From a virus: a stretch of 64,000 nt of DNA. The notes beneath the pieces were generated by a model. That model saw nothing but the letters and a program-made list of their open reading frames with translations. It was not told where the DNA came from and made no database searches. Numbering within the stretch: position 1 is the stretch's first letter; every line of letters begins with the position of its first letter. The stretch spans positions 1 to 64,000 of IMG/VR virus record IMGVR_UViG_3300008267_010368. One strand, 5' to 3'. Shown piece by piece: positions 7,284-53,039 of the stretch. The translations under genes were made by a program, and so were the position numbers.

Positions 7284-7878
7284 TTTGTATTAATTTTTTT
7301 AAAAGTTTAAAATCAAAAGATGGGTTAACATCTTTATATGTTATATCAAAATTACTTTTACTTGTAATTCCTTTTATGTTTTCAACACCATCACAAATCA
7401 CATTTGTTTCTACCATATTCTTTGGTAAACTGAACTTTTCACACAATGTTAAAATAAGTTCAGATAGTGTTTTTATTTGTTTTTTATTATAAGGTTCCCA
7501 AAAAATTTCATCTCTCCATCTTTTTTCGAAAACTTCCTTTTTATAAATATCACCTAACCAATTTGTATACGTATTGTCCAATGGATTTTTTTTGAGCCAA
7601 CCCATATTTTCCAAAACAATAATTATAGACTTTTTGTCAATAGATTCTTTTTCCATGTAATTGGAATAAGCATTTGGTGGAATTACTTGAAAAATTTTAC
7701 CATTTTTGGTAATGACGTAGTTTGGTAAATAAGGATTTTTCTTGTTATACCTATACTTTAATGAATTGATATAATTTTTGTAATCTCTTCTTGTGTCCCC
7801 AAGAATAATTTGTGTTTTCTTATCGTTTAAACCGATTGATTTAAAATCTGTCAATTCGTAAAGATTTTCCATAACCAT
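7267..7878 (-). CDS. Amidase_2/PGRP-fold protein lacking all histidines (203 aa)
   Basis: The order of segments follows N-acetylmuramoyl-L-alanine amidases of the Amidase_2/PGRP fold. A strand KTQIILGDT stands where IVIHHT is usual, then LPNYVITKNGKIFQ for the HYLID-G-I-Q motif, then SIIIVLENMGWL for the IGIELEN motif, and a C-terminal GITSKSNFDITYKDVNP where SH-D-KxDPG is usual. Every zinc-ligand histidine is replaced; the protein contains no histidine at all. It is therefore unlikely to be a zinc amidase and may bind peptidoglycan or act structurally. It overlaps the membrane-protein gene upstream by 38 bases. ATG codons at 7878 and 7872 are both possible starts. Confidence 0.6.
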   Translation of the reverse strand: MVMENLYELTDFKSIGLNDKKTQIILGDTRRDYKNYINSLKYRYNKKNPYLPNYVITKNGKIFQVIPPNAYSNYMEKESIDKKSIIIVLENMGWLKKNPLDNTYTNWLGDIYKKEVFEKRWRDEIFWEPYNKKQIKTLSELILTLCEKFSLPKNMVETNVICDGVENIKGITSKSNFDITYKDVNPSFDFKLLKKLIQNDESI

Positions 7879-8995
7879 CTCTGTTAAGGTATGATAATTT
7901 TTTAGGTTGATTATCGATTGATTCTTCTATTATTACCTGTTTTGTGTCTTCAGTTTTTATTTCGTCTTCTTGTATTTCTGTAACTTCAACACTTTTAACA
8001 ATTGTATCTTCAATTACTTGCTCGGTACTTGTTTGGTAGTTAGTCGGTGCTTGTTTGGTTTCTTTTTCGTGGGGGACATCAATGTCCACCTCAACTTGTG
8101 GGGTAACTAGTGGGGTACTTACGGGGTAATCAGGTGTATTTACGGGATAAATCTCTTCCTCTTGGGTTGATGTTGGTTCTGGTTCTTCTTTTACTTTTCT
8201 TCTTGATTTAAATGCTTGATTTGTAGCAATAACTAAAGTAATGGCAAGTGGATCGAATACAAATATAAGAATCAATATAAATAAGTTTGCAGTTCTTTTG
8301 ATGTCCCAATCCAATATTTCACTAACATACTTAATAGCACCAAGTTCACTACCTGAAATTTCTTCTGACTCCATGTTTAGTATTTGGACTTCAAGATTTG
8401 TGATACTATCATTCATTGCATCAATTCTTTTTGCAATTGTGTCACGTCTTACTTGTGCTTCTTTTAATTGTCCTTCAAATGATTTTCTATTTGCATTATT
8501 TGCCTTAGTGATAACCTGTCCAGTTTTTCTATCTACAGTCTGTGTTGTTGTGTTATTCGATAAACCATCCCTCAACTTAGTTATGTCACCATCCAAGATT
8601 GTTTTTTCTTTTGTTAATTCGATTTTAATTTCATCAAATCTTTTTTTCTTTACTTCGACATTTTTTACTTGTTTTTCATTTATTTCAAGTTTTGCAATGT
8701 TTCCTTGAAATCCTGTACTTAAAAGCCCATAAATCCCTAATGAAGTAATAATAGAAAGTGTTACAAGCGCAATTGTCATATAAATTTTCAAGGCACCATA
8801 AGTATTTTTCCAATTTTCGTGTAGATATGTGGCAATTGCAATTTTAGAAATTTCCAAAAAACTTCCCATTATTATTACTGGTATTGCCACACCAACAAAT
8901 ACAATACTTAAACCTACAACACTATAGTAAGCGGCAGTCCCCGAAAGTCCAAGAGCACAAAATAAAAGAAACCACGGTAAGAATTTTTCATTCAT
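7841..8995 (-). CDS. Multi-pass membrane protein with coiled-coil domain (384 aa)
   Basis: Three hydrophobic segments lie in the first 95 residues (about 5-25, 28-48, 72-95). A long coiled coil follows (about 100-215), then a fourth hydrophobic segment (about 235-258, FILILIFVFDPLAITLVIA). The C-terminal 110 residues are rich in Pro, Thr and Glu and probably disordered. The coiled coil is thus placed between two membrane parts. The family is not recognised. It heads the cluster with the amidase-like and spanin-like genes, so a role at the host envelope is plausible. Two terminators separate it from the RNA upstream, so it should have its own promoter in 8996-9072. Confidence 0.75.
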   Translation of the reverse strand: MNEKFLPWFLLFCALGLSGTAAYYSVVGLSIVFVGVAIPVIIMGSFLEISKIAIATYLHENWKNTYGALKIYMTIALVTLSIITSLGIYGLLSTGFQGNIAKLEINEKQVKNVEVKKKRFDEIKIELTKEKTILDGDITKLRDGLSNNTTTQTVDRKTGQVITKANNANRKSFEGQLKEAQVRRDTIAKRIDAMNDSITNLEVQILNMESEEISGSELGAIKYVSEILDWDIKRTANLFILILIFVFDPLAITLVIATNQAFKSRRKVKEEPEPTSTQEEEIYPVNTPDYPVSTPLVTPQVEVDIDVPHEKETKQAPTNYQTSTEQVIEDTIVKSVEVTEIQEDEIKTEDTKQVIIEESIDNQPKKLSYLNRDGYGKSLRIDRF

Positions 8996-9072: not shown

Positions 9073-9106
9073 AAAACAACCATAGTATTCTGACTATGGT
9101 TGTTTT
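9073..9106 (-). terminator. Rho-independent terminator
   Basis: A perfect 14-bp stem (AAAACAACCATAGT with its complement) closes a 6-base loop. On the minus strand it is followed by a run that extends the terminal T stretch to six. It is the second of two hairpins after the putative small RNA and isolates it from the gene at 8995. Confidence 0.75.
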
Positions 9107-9143
9107 GATGTATTCTGACACCAAAATATTATTATATAAATAT

Positions 9144-9169
9144 AAAAGGGTGGGAAAACCCACCCTTTT
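9144..9169 (-). terminator. Rho-independent terminator of the putative small RNA
   Basis: An 11-bp perfect stem (AAAAGGGTGGG with CCCACCCTTTT) closes a 4-base loop. The A and T flanks give T-rich tails on both strands, so it could work in either direction. With no gene converging from plus, it probably ends the minus-strand RNA that starts near 9293. Confidence 0.8.
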
Positions 9170-9293
9170 AATTTTTTTCGGTCCGATTCGAGGAATTTAA
9201 ACCCGACACACTAACCGCGGTGTCACGACGACTTACGACTCCAGGAGTAAGCTTCCCGTTACAAATTATGATTGACTAATCTCTCATCGTTTG
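9144..9293 (-). ncRNA. Putative promoter-driven structured small RNA, about 150 nt
   Basis: The region lies between a strong Bacteroidota-type promoter (9299-9330) and a terminator (9144-9169) and holds no open frame of note. Its core, 9181-9258, is much more GC-rich than its surroundings. On the minus strand I can pair CTTAC with GTAAG (a D-arm-like hairpin, 9232-9250, loop containing GG), GACAC with GTGTC (about 9203-9224), and a TCGGG/CCTCGA hairpin whose loop TTTAAAT is like a T-loop. The arms are spaced somewhat as in tRNA, but no 7-bp acceptor stem or 7-base anticodon loop can be formed, so I do not call it tRNA. Regulatory RNA, degenerate tRNA or tRNA mimic are all possible. Confidence 0.5.
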
Positions 9294-9298
9294 TGATA

Positions 9299-9330
9299 CA
9301 AAGATATGATAGAGATTTTAATCTGCCAAA
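9299..9330 (-). promoter_or_regulatory. Bacteroidota-type promoter for the small RNA (TTTG-N20-TATCTTTG)
   Basis: On the minus strand TTTG (9330-9327) is followed after exactly 20 bases by TATCTTTG (9306-9299), matching the published Bacteroidota consensus of TTTG at -33 and TAnnTTTG at -7. The start of transcription is expected near 9293. The -33 box overlaps the last codons of the gene at 9318-9710. The core is nearly identical to the promoter at 9735-9766. Confidence 0.8.
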
Positions 9331-9710
9331 ATTTCTTCCAATTTTTTTACACGATTTTTGAAAGTTGTGTTGTAAAACTTTTCAAAATCATTTTTAAGAT
9401 AATTAAACCTGATTTCAGTTCCGTTAGTTAACGAGTTGTATGCGGTTCCCCAATTCATTCCATTATTTACCATATCAATAACAGAAATTCCTACGGACAT
9501 ATTTGAAATATTACCAACATGAATTGACACTTTCAATTCAGGATTATATAATCCTCTTTCAAACCCTTTACCTCGTGGATCAGTTACAAAACCTCTTTTT
9601 TCGAACTCCCCAATAATAAAATTGAACATATCAGTTTTGAAGTTGTTTTTGATTGAACCAATTTCTTTGTTCAACTCTTGAAGTTTTGTAATTTTTTCAG
9701 TCATCGTCAT
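9318..9710 (-). CDS. Hypothetical protein (130 aa) with its own promoter
   Basis: A soluble protein with a helical N-terminus (MTMTEKITKLQELNKEIGSI), a central beta-rich part (LYNPELKVSIHVGNISNMSVG), and a helical C-terminus ending KNRVKKLEEILAD. No family recognised. It is the only gene here with both an individual host-type promoter (9735-9766) and a Shine-Dalgarno-like AAGG about 10 bases before the ATG. That combination suggests strong, early expression, for example of a host-takeover protein; this is inference. The small-RNA promoter begins inside its final codons. Confidence 0.7.
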   Translation of the reverse strand: MTMTEKITKLQELNKEIGSIKNNFKTDMFNFIIGEFEKRGFVTDPRGKGFERGLYNPELKVSIHVGNISNMSVGISVIDMVNNGMNWGTAYNSLTNGTEIRFNYLKNDFEKFYNTTFKNRVKKLEEILAD

Positions 9711-9734: not shown

Positions 9735-9766
9735 CAAAGATATGATAAAGGTTTGATTCTGCCAAA
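9735..9766 (-). promoter_or_regulatory. Bacteroidota-type promoter (TTTG-N20-TATCTTTG) for the 130-aa gene
   Basis: On the minus strand TTTG (9766-9763) is followed by a 20-base spacer and TATCTTTG (9742-9735). The expected transcription start is near 9728, giving a leader of about 18 bases before the ATG at 9710. A 23-base segment including the -7 box is repeated exactly at 9290-9312. Confidence 0.8.
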
Positions 9767-9771
9767 TTTTT

Positions 9772-10587
9772 TTATAAATAATCAAATAATTCAGAACATT
9801 CGTTTCTTAACTTGCGAAGTGCCTTTTCTTTAATTTGCCTTACCCTTTCTTTTGTTAAACCAAAGTCCATACCAATGTCTTCTAATGTTCTTGGTGTTCC
9901 TGACAAACCATAGTAATCTTCAACTATTGTTCTTTCTCTTTCATCCAAAACAGACATAATTGACATCATTTTTTCTTTTAAAGTATCTTGTGTAGAAAAA
10001 ATTTCATCAGGGGATTCAACATTTTCATTTTTTATAACATCAATCAATGTATCACCATCTTCATTGATGTGCATATCCAAATCTATAATTTTAGGTAGAT
10101 TTGCAAACTTACTAGACAATTCTTTATTTGTATTTTCGATTTGTCTTTTTTCTTTTTGCATATCTTGAACAACGTTCACTGGTAGTCTGATTGTTCTTGA
10201 ATTTTCATTAAGTGATTGTAAGATAGATTGTTTAATCCACCAAACTGCGTATGAAATAAAACGATTCTTTTTACTCCAATCAAAGTTTTTGATAGCCTTC
10301 ATTAAACCAAAATTACCTTCAGCAATTAAATCAGATAAATCAATTCCTTGATTTTGATATTGTTTAGCAACAGTAATCACGAATCTCAAATTACCCTCTA
10401 ACAGTTCTTTATAGATAAGTTCCCTTTCTCTTGCTGTACAATTATTTGACGTGATTCTTTCTGAAAGAATCTTTTCCCTTTCAGGTGTCATTACTTTTAA
10501 CTTTCGAATGTCTTTCAAATAAATTTGGATTTCATCCTGATTTAAAGGATTACTGTTTTTTACTTCTTCAATTCTTTCTCTTTCCAT
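9772..10587 (-). CDS. RNA polymerase sigma-70 family factor, primary-sigma-like (271 aa)
   Basis: Region 1.2 is visible near residues 17-45 (DEIQIYLKDIRKLKVMTPER). Region 2 spans about 60-140: NLRFVITVAKQYQNQG, LIAEGNFGLMKAIKNFD, FISYAVWWIKQSIL, then RTIRLPVNVV. Region 4 has DERERTIVEDYYGL, TLEDIGMDFGLTKERVRQIKEKALRKLR near the C-terminus, the helix-turn-helix that contacts -35 elements. The length and lack of region 1.1 match the short primary sigma of Bacteroidota. It could redirect host core polymerase to phage promoters, or keep host-type promoters active during infection. The upstream gene overlaps it by 20 bases and shares its promoter at 11182-11212. Confidence 0.92.
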   Translation of the reverse strand: MERERIEEVKNSNPLNQDEIQIYLKDIRKLKVMTPEREKILSERITSNNCTARERELIYKELLEGNLRFVITVAKQYQNQGIDLSDLIAEGNFGLMKAIKNFDWSKKNRFISYAVWWIKQSILQSLNENSRTIRLPVNVVQDMQKEKRQIENTNKELSSKFANLPKIIDLDMHINEDGDTLIDVIKNENVESPDEIFSTQDTLKEKMMSIMSVLDERERTIVEDYYGLSGTPRTLEDIGMDFGLTKERVRQIKEKALRKLRNECSELFDYL

Positions 10588-51179: not shown

Positions 51180-53039
51180 TTATACGATTTCACACGCACC
51201 ACCAGCACACGCAGCTTCACCTCGTAGGTCGGTGTTATCTTGTAACTCAATTACTTTTGTAAGATCAACATCTGACAATGTTTTAACCAATCTTTCAAAA
51301 TCTTCTTTTGTACAATCTTCAAAAGGTGCCTGGGTATATGTGCCTCCGTTATAAGGTAGTACAGATAAACCATTATAGAAATCTCTGTTATTCCACATCC
51401 ATTCACCTACCAAGTCCCACTCATCTTCTTTAATTGAAACCGTAGCGGATACGTTATGAGTGTTTTGTCCGTTTCTATGTCCTGGTTTAATCCATTCTTG
51501 TGATACTTTCTTAACACGTTCCAACATTTGAAATACAGATTCGTGTCTTACAATTGAACCTTCAGGCGCTTTTTGTGGGATAGTAATTACCGCAGTGTCG
51601 TGAGGACGGAAAAACTCATCTTCAATTAACTCAGGGTGATTAATCGCCAAGTATGAATATATTGATTCGTTTTTACCTACACGGATTCTTCTTAAATAGA
51701 AGTCATTATGCCAAGCGTGAATTCCTGATGATGTTCCCAATACCAAAGATGATGTTCCTGATGGTTTTACAGTTGTTGTTCTTGCCGATTTATTAATACC
51801 AATCAGTTTAGCAACTCTTTCATTTTCTTCTTTAACCATTTTTGCTGCTTTTTTCATGTCGTAACCTAATACAACACCAGAACCGATACCCGTCATTCCA
51901 ACACCAATAAGTGCGTCTTTTTCTGTTGTTCTTTTCCAAATGTCTCTTAAGTAATGAAAATCAGTATATCCCGCTTGTAGTGTACCAATAAATGATGCAG
52001 CCTTAACTCTTGCATCAAAGTCTTCTTGTGATTCAATATCAGATGCGTTTACTTCACATAGATTACAGAATTGAAACGGACGAAGTGCGATTTCACAACA
52101 AGGATTTGTTCCCCAATCTTTATCATTAGAAAGATAAATTCCTGGTTCACCTGCTCCTGATAGTTCAATACGTTTCCATAAATCCATAAAGAACTCTTTT
52201 GTAATTTTGTGACGAAGAAGTACTGCCGAATTGTTTGCTCTACCTCTTTGAGCATTTTGTTCCCACCAATTACCTGATTTACAAGAAATCATTTCTTCAT
52301 CATCCGCACTGAACAATGAAATAAGTGCCGCTCTTCTAATACCACCAGCAAGTACCGCATCGGCAATATGACATACGATGTCATGTGTTTCAATAGGTGT
52401 AAGTTTTTCACCATCTTTTTTATTATCCAAAACTTTTGTAATGTTGTGGATACAATCTTTTAATGGTTGAGGTCCAGGTGCTTTTCCACCTGAAGTAACT
52501 AGATTTGCACCTTTTTGACGAATGTCAGAAAAATCAAATACAGGTGTCGATGACTTATACCCTAAATAAGATTCCATTAATACTTTTATCGCATCTGCCC
52601 ATCCTTCGATTGAATCACCAATAAGGTATCTTCTTGTTCTTTCAGGATTTGGTTTTTTGATGTCTGGTAATTTTTCTACGTGATGTTTTTGTACCGAATA
52701 ACCAACACCTGTACCACCTAAAAGTAGAAACATTGTTTCAGAAAAAGAATCAACGTGATCGATTGGCATATATGCACAATTATAAACCCTATTTGGTGAA
52801 ATTTCAATTGGTTTTCCACCAAATTGTAATGATCTCATTGATGGTAATACTTTCTTGTCGTATACCATTTCATATACCTCTTCAATTTCATTTTTGATGT
52901 GTGGGTATTTTCTTTGATGCATTTCTTTGTTACGTGTAACAAGTTCTTCCCAAGTCTCTCTCCGATTCAATTCCGGTTGAAACTTTGCGTATTTCATAAA
53001 GACAGTAATGTCACTTAATATTTTTTGAGAAATATCCAT
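51180..53039 (-). CDS. nrdJ: Adenosylcobalamin-dependent ribonucleotide reductase, class II (619 aa)
   Basis: Reduces ribonucleotides to deoxyribonucleotides for phage DNA synthesis. Visible features: MRSLQFGGKPIEISPNRVYN near residue 65, the loop LLLGGTGVGYSV near 105, NPCCEIALRPFQFCNLCEVN near 315 with the N-x-C-x-E active-site triad, and a C-terminal EAACAGGACEIV carrying the redox cysteines. The pattern resembles monomeric RTPR (Lactobacillus type), which uses triphosphates and B12. Because class II needs no oxygen and no partner subunit, it is self-sufficient when the host supplies cobalamin. Confidence 0.9.
   Translation of the reverse strand: MDISQKILSDITVFMKYAKFQPELNRRETWEELVTRNKEMHQRKYPHIKNEIEEVYEMVYDKKVLPSMRSLQFGGKPIEISPNRVYNCAYMPIDHVDSFSETMFLLLGGTGVGYSVQKHHVEKLPDIKKPNPERTRRYLIGDSIEGWADAIKVLMESYLGYKSSTPVFDFSDIRQKGANLVTSGGKAPGPQPLKDCIHNITKVLDNKKDGEKLTPIETHDIVCHIADAVLAGGIRRAALISLFSADDEEMISCKSGNWWEQNAQRGRANNSAVLLRHKITKEFFMDLWKRIELSGAGEPGIYLSNDKDWGTNPCCEIALRPFQFCNLCEVNASDIESQEDFDARVKAASFIGTLQAGYTDFHYLRDIWKRTTEKDALIGVGMTGIGSGVVLGYDMKKAAKMVKEENERVAKLIGINKSARTTTVKPSGTSSLVLGTSSGIHAWHNDFYLRRIRVGKNESIYSYLAINHPELIEDEFFRPHDTAVITIPQKAPEGSIVRHESVFQMLERVKKVSQEWIKPGHRNGQNTHNVSATVSIKEDEWDLVGEWMWNNRDFYNGLSVLPYNGGTYTQAPFEDCTKEDFERLVKTLSDVDLTKVIELQDNTDLRGEAACAGGACEIV

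Follow-up and report, generated by a model that had tools for sequence, protein, structure and literature searches.

What is a GC-rich element without an evident reading frame doing behind a sigma factor gene in an AT-rich phage genome, and with what does it work? The window, a stretch of 64,000 nucleotides (positions 1 to 64,000 of IMG/VR record IMGVR_UViG_3300008267_010368), is part of a 142,668-base phage record. The phage carries SbcC-like, SbcD-like and primase genes, which we take to be T4-like. Its ribonucleotide reductase gene (51180-53039) has a match to a B12-dependent-type insertion domain. The element, hereafter RNA-A, and its neighbours are all on the minus strand.

9772-10587, minus: phage sigma factor gene (sigma-70 family), conserved neighbour upstream of RNA-A
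9318-9710, minus: 130-aa gene between the sigma gene and RNA-A
9299-9330, minus: host (sigma-A) type promoter TTTG-N20-TATCTTTG, exact match, partly overlapping the 3' end of the 130-aa gene
9141-9294, minus: predicted RNA-A transcript of 154 nt, its start placed from the TAnnTTTG position
9143-9170, minus: intrinsic terminator, 12-bp stem with 6 G-C, loop of 4; the arms vary yet pair in relatives
9135-9142, minus: TATTTATA box, in relatives 11-12 nt upstream of a gene's ATG, here without that gene
9073-9106, minus: second hairpin with a T-run, common to L005 and L006, both of which are without RNA-A
7841-8995, minus: 384-aa gene with a hydrophobic N-terminus, conserved neighbour downstream of RNA-A

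Promoter, terminator and coding capacity

An earlier, sequence-only reading of this DNA proposed a minus-strand small RNA of the phage, served by a host-type promoter and a terminator of its own. Our analysis supports this proposal, and comparison of the sequences establishes promoter, terminator, conservation and base pairing of RNA-A in relatives. The GC-rich island that it placed at 9181-9258 of an AT-rich genome was found as described, with 53.8% GC against 31.2% for the window, and equally rich 78-nt stretches amount to 0.27%. The absence of an open frame also held, since the longest start-initiated ORF in the transcript has 13 codons. A protein-coding reading was considered and rejected. 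Several relatives have one sense frame that runs uninterrupted through the core. In L043, however, this frame contains a stop codon and a 1-nt deletion, and in the window it lacks a start codon up to a GTG 13 codons from its end.

The TTTG box is an element of the Bacteroidota sigma-A promoter. The exact TTTG-N20-TATCTTTG promoter of the earlier reading was confirmed at 9330-9299 of the minus strand, and it has both the TTTG and the TAnnTTTG boxes of Bacteroidota sigma-A promoters at the right spacing. The Bacteroidota TAnnTTTG consensus sits at -12 to -5 in the section of PMC9723704 that deals with it, so the predicted start is A9294, which is the first base of the 5' hairpin of RNA-A. The pattern TTTG-N18-22-TATCTTTG has three matches in the window against 0.2 expected. 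For the less strict TTTG-N18-22-TAnnTTTG, the 142.7-kb record has 17 matches where shuffled sequence averages 13.5, which is no enrichment, so the real evidence for the promoter is its conservation in relatives: the TAnnTTTG box is kept in 12 of the 14 RNA-A types and is missing in L025 and L043. In L025 (2600-2680), RNA-A is without the TATCTTTG box and the 5' hairpin, as if they were deleted between TATC repeats. RNA-A is probably transcribed, and early expression would fit the promoter type.

The promoter of the 130-aa gene (9766-9735) resembles that of RNA-A, with 90% identity over 42 nt, so that similar promoters at 9735-9766 and 9299-9330 stand on either side of this gene. It looks as if the gene was inserted between the sigma gene and RNA-A with a promoter copy. 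A search for further RNA-A copies in the record matched only the 42-base promoter stretch 9766-9725.

The terminator had been described with an 11-bp stem; a terminator is present, but its stem has 12 pairs. It may be bidirectional, because the prediction gives the hairpin for both strands, with the longer T-run on the plus strand.

Conservation and distribution of RNA-A

Exact-pattern scans of viral contigs found RNA-A in 14, 17 and 18 contigs, and in 20 with the loosest pattern; the chance pattern matches L028, L029, L031 and L032 were removed by eye. Among the 10 types with the following gene, the 78-nt core has a mean identity of 89%, compared with 67% for the DNA of that gene and 66% for the DNA of the next one. 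When L052 and L053 were left out of its building, a covariance model still detected RNA-A immediately before the gene in both (E 4.2e-4 and 1.7e-4), L052 being missed in pooled searches and found only when its own record was searched. It is well supported by these comparisons that RNA-A is a conserved and undescribed RNA family.

Outside these viral contigs, one 22-letter pattern of the RNA had no exact match in bacterial genome contigs, and no protein relatives of the following gene were confirmed there among 191 candidate stretches. Against annotated phages, the DNA searches gave just six short matches (E 7) and the protein searches none at E up to 0.1. We found no description of RNA-A in the literature, in a search that was not exhaustive.

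Secondary structure and identity

The structure drawn for RNA-A consists of the following elements.

9261-9294, minus: 5' hairpin ACAAA/UUUGU (9294-9290 with 9265-9261); ACAAAC/GUUUGU in most relatives, by eye
9231-9258, minus: H-type pseudoknot, S1 CGGGA/UCCUG (9258-9254 with 9246-9242) and S2 GCUUAC/GUAAGU (9252-9247 with 9236-9231)
9205-9224, minus: hairpin 2 GACAC/GUGUC (9224-9220 with 9209-9205), with covariation
9184-9217, minus: possible long-range pairing CGGUU (9217-9213) with AAUCG (9188-9184), weak

S1 shows double compensatory changes at two pairs (L030, L043), and one S1 pair breaks in L016. In hairpin 2, both sides of one pair change together (AACAC/GUGUU in L047), and two further pairs change on one side. 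Five of the six S2 pairs never vary and are therefore uninformative on pairing. In the long-range pairing 93% of the cells are paired, with no double change and with L043 out of register there, and we regard it as weak. Counted over 12 distinct types, the pseudoknot, hairpin 2 and the long-range pairing have 98.0% of cells paired against 27-42% in slid controls, over which the structure has an advantage by having been drawn from the same sequences. Double changes occur at three pairs, a number that 4 of 500 shuffles reach; further pair types, one of five measures, were no better than in shuffles (173 of 500).

The two distant homologues L052 and L053 differ in sequence, yet the pseudoknot re-pairs in them (GGUA/UACC, GAUAC/GUAUC). 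The same pseudoknot class, whose limits were set after the sequences had been seen, was given by 7 of 1000 and 2 of 1000 shuffles of the L052 and L053 stretches and by 92 of 1000 of the window's own, so the sequence of the window alone would not prove a pseudoknot. The nested fold of the 88-nt core was no better than shuffles (z +0.99), and nested-fold energy was thus rejected as evidence of structure; the 153-nt fold has z -2.5 with the terminator included. Taken together, the compensatory changes and the re-paired distant homologues support a fold of RNA-A made of an H-type pseudoknot and a hairpin.

Conserved structure in relatives had been named as a check on the earlier reading, and the covariation supplies it, for a pseudoknot and hairpin and not for the D and T arms that had been drawn, which are unsupported. 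That reading had also suggested a tRNA mimic or a degenerate tRNA, and it had noted the missing acceptor stem, of which we likewise saw none. An ~85-nt GC-rich core and a GGGUUUAAAUUCC motif that is T-arm-like by eye speak for such an RNA. Against it, ARAGORN reported 0 tRNA or tmRNA genes, Rfam gave 0 hits at the gathering cut-off in the window and in 16 loci, and tRNA or tmRNA models made up 0 of 19 among the matches listed at E up to 10. With the covariation favouring another fold, we consider such an RNA extremely improbable. The window's best sub-threshold Rfam matches, Termite-leu (0.00022) and sraA (0.0015), both align to the terminator hairpin and were taken as chance; in the sub-threshold lists for L034 and L053 the best E-value was 0.0063.

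Linkage of RNA-A to a downstream gene

The order in relatives is sigma gene, in some cases other genes, RNA-A, terminator, TATTTAT box, a gene of 178-179 aa, in some cases a further element, and a 384-aa-type gene. By the loosest scan, the 178-179-aa gene and a late-promoter-like box follow the terminator in 18 of the 20 RNA-A contigs, although counts of this kind are biased, since loci were collected via the RNA or the protein. The remaining two contigs, one of them of 229 kb, belong to the window's own species; they keep RNA-A, lack the gene and carry a 130-aa gene identical to that of the window. The gene family that follows RNA-A in relatives was not found in the window's record and had no match in those two contigs or in G000, records that may be incomplete. 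Gene-first scans gave 11 distinct types at the sigma locus, all with RNA-A upstream, and in L005 and L006 neither RNA-A nor the gene was matched. The gene is also flanked upstream by a diverged RNA-A in L052 and L053, where the proteins are ~39% identical and the neighbourhood is unrelated.

The 384-aa-type gene is present in 5 of 14 records searched. Four of the five have the sigma gene, a second element called RNA-B (see below) and the 384-aa-type gene; no RNA-A was seen at their sigma locus, and they carry a second branch of the protein elsewhere. Two of these records are near-identical. The Fisher value obtained for the counts treats two near-identical records as separate and is no fair test. 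The fifth record, G011, keeps the promoter and the two ends of RNA-A, which meet at a GTCGGG repeat in place of the deleted core; RNA-B is present and there is no 178-179-aa gene there. Because other phages keep the same locus without RNA-A and the gene, the two resemble a single inserted cassette.

In 15 contigs, which carry the second branch of the protein, no RNA-A is seen immediately upstream of its gene. The covariance model, run on 13 of the 15 records, gave no match at E up to 1 in 10, only weak matches in G016 and G022 (E 0.05-0.9), and one in G011 (E 0.6) that is the RNA-A remnant. A tree of 20 proteins places L052 and L053 with the branch lacking RNA-A (support 100/97); with the root at the midpoint, RNA-A is therefore found to either side of the deepest split. 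Presence and absence of RNA-A need one change on this tree.

This history could also be that of an independent early RNA, which would act on a host factor such as RNA polymerase, the ribosome, an RNase or a defence protein, its adjacency to the gene reflecting only a shared cassette. RNA-A has its own host-type promoter and terminator, and the window's species, including the 229-kb record, keeps it whole in the absence of the gene. Its core is 97% identical between this species and L018 while the downstream proteins share 58%, and parallel divergence of RNA and protein was not significant (Mantel r 0.25, p 0.12; r -0.20 for the RNA against the downstream protein). Such independence is harder to reconcile with the gene in 18 of 20 contigs, the recurrence of the pair in an unrelated neighbourhood, the deletion of the core in G011 where the gene is gone, and the loss of the promoter box in 2 of 14 types. 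We consider it somewhat unlikely.

The protein encoded downstream and its late-type box

A structure of the L052 protein was modelled from 20 aligned members (pLDDT 81, pTM 0.76). Foldseek against the PDB gave nothing below E 0.4, and the hit at E 0.4 is unrelated. The top VIA-align match is CdiA-CT of Yersinia kristensenii (Z 6.0), followed by the toxins RelE, HigB, YoeB, BrnT and ParE (Z 2.9-4.6); RelE, HigB, BrnT, YoeB, ParE or like toxin folds account for 41 of the best 50 rows as read from their titles, and VIA-align warns that such Z values may mean a common arrangement only. The Pfam model matched by most members was MuF_C, below threshold in 5 of 20 (best E 0.0055), which we take to be part of the barnase-EndoU-colicin-RelE nuclease group. 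For one member the best Pfam E-value belonged to TssO (0.00025), also below threshold. BFVD at E up to 0.001 gave two matches, an uncharacterised phage protein (5.7e-15) and another with a low TM-score (1.3e-4). On modest scores, the modelled protein may resemble RelE-like nucleases.

All 20 members have L/I/V-x-E near the N-terminus, a short motif counted with no control set. The T4 head-protease signal is given as L/I-x-E in the relevant part of PMC9026906. A gp21-like protease (Peptidase_S77) is encoded in G004, G011 and G016, three of five records, and was not found in the other two, G000 and G005, the latter the 57.7-kb record of L018. The N-terminus of the protein could be a capsid-targeting signal.

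The TATTTATA box that remains in the window is the commonest 8-mer upstream of the record's genes (18 of 119, against a shuffled mean of 1.9), and every one of the 20 members, including those without RNA-A, has a TATTTAT that begins 11-12 nt ahead of the ATG. By analogy with the T4 late box, the TATTTATA/TATTTAT box is probably the phage late promoter. The TATTTATA box was seen as a probable late promoter in the window and in L007-L010.

This box bears on whether RNA-A is a cis-acting leader, an attenuator or riboswitch, of the downstream gene. The terminator ends within ~30 nt of the ATG in relatives, and the conserved, pseudoknotted core is aptamer-like, as a leader would be. A gene with its own box in every member, even without RNA-A, and a box so frequent in the record argue otherwise, as do the intact core of the window where the gene is gone and the lack of any Rfam riboswitch above the cut-off. 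A leader therefore appears quite unlikely to us.

We give a similarly low chance to RNA-A being no inhibitor but an activating cofactor or guide of the protein, or an RNA packaged with it. The linkage of RNA and gene counts for this reading as well, and conservation extends past the paired bases; on the other side stand the second protein branch without an adjacent RNA-A, and an RNA promoter of early type against a gene box of late type.

Proposed role and significance

The reading that we favour, tentatively and at somewhat less than an even chance, is that RNA-A is a stand-alone, trans-acting, pseudoknotted phage small RNA, the partner or antidote of the 178-179-aa protein in a type III toxin-antitoxin-like pair, and that it is orphaned in the window. 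It is favoured by the linkage in two neighbourhoods together with the decay of RNA-A in G011. The 15-contig branch without an adjacent RNA-A, the orphan RNA of the window and the lack of significant co-divergence speak against it, and so does the gene's seeming possession of its own promoter, compared with the single operon of type III systems.

Under this partnership, the host RNA polymerase would make RNA-A from the Bacteroidota sigma-A promoter and stop at its own terminator, and RNA-A would accumulate early. Like a type III antitoxin, it would bind the protein encoded directly downstream in relatives and keep that protein inhibited. We infer that the protein is a late, perhaps packaged, nuclease held in check by RNA-A; it would be made late under RNA-A protection, packaged and injected into the next host. 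The window's phage, without the protein gene, may keep RNA-A as a young relic or as an antidote to protein from co-infecting relatives. A narrower version, which we think unlikely, has RNA-A as the antidote of a virion-packaged RelE-like nuclease, made at once on infection and shutting off the injected weapon of the phage itself and of its competitors; the window's phage would then retain the antidote alone as superinfection immunity against relatives still carrying the nuclease.

A second conserved GC-rich element, RNA-B, was picked by a shared 20-base segment, GGGTTGAACCGAGATTACCC, and has 11 copies.

RNA-B copies: L034:3537-3676, L047:2645-2784, L036, L041, L042, L045, L049, L087, L093, L095 and L096

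An H-type pseudoknot whose outer pairs covary by eye can be drawn in RNA-B, with a hairpin, a GGTGxAAxTCC-like motif and a terminator. It comes immediately behind either the sigma gene or the partner gene, and in L047 it precedes RNA-A. RNA-B had no Rfam hit and no match in G000 or 8 other records.

RNA-A adds a pseudoknotted RNA family absent from Rfam, with a Bacteroidota-type promoter, in large phages with T4-like genes. If the partnership is true, RNA-antitoxin systems would come to include a RelE-like protein, perhaps a virion-delivered effector, and there would be a case of a phage that drops the toxin and keeps the RNA.

Comparison with known systems

In type III toxin-antitoxin systems, as described in the part of PMC5086642 concerned with them, the RNA antitoxin consists of repeats and the toxin gene comes after a terminator. 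RNA-A resembles ToxIN, CptIN and TenpIN (PMC5086642, same part) in that a pseudoknotted non-coding RNA is followed by an intrinsic terminator and then by a possible RNase gene, here of 178-179 aa. The arrangement of RNA, intrinsic terminator and putative toxin gene was found in 18 of the 20 RNA-A contigs and not in the window, where the gene is missing; the pseudoknot is seen at the level of sequence, in the double changes of S1 and the re-pairing of L052 and L053. Unlike these systems, RNA-A has no tandem repeats, and Tandem Repeats Finder reported no tandem array inside it. The gene of the relatives apparently has its own late promoter, all 20 members having TATTTAT between the terminator and the ATG (read-through is possible), the modelled protein appears RelE-like with a capsid-targeting-like N-terminus, and one branch is without adjacent RNA. 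The protein had no match to the ToxN, CptN or TenpN families in Pfam or PADLOC. Since repeats are absent and the protein is seemingly of another kind, we do not file RNA-A as a type III member.

AvcID is called type III in the portion of PMC10511110 consulted, although its toxin is a deoxycytidylate deaminase and its antitoxin an RNA, so other proteins can pair with RNA antitoxins. It differs from RNA-A and its gene in being a bacterial defence system with another protein, and PMC10511110 predicts no terminator between its two genes.

The T4 internal head proteins differ from the relatives' protein, which has a putative RelE-like body and whose packaging is only predicted. They may be like it in the short N-terminal segment ending in L/I-x-E, as given in the head-protein part of PMC9026906, and in the gp21-like protease of three of the five related records here.

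The pseudo-ToxI of phage PhiTE is reported, in the relevant part of PMC3475682, to be a non-coding RNA of the phage that mimics a type III antitoxin and thereby neutralises a toxin. It has ToxI-like repeats, unlike RNA-A, which has none and whose linked gene is in phages; it is an earlier example of an antitoxin RNA standing alone in a phage.
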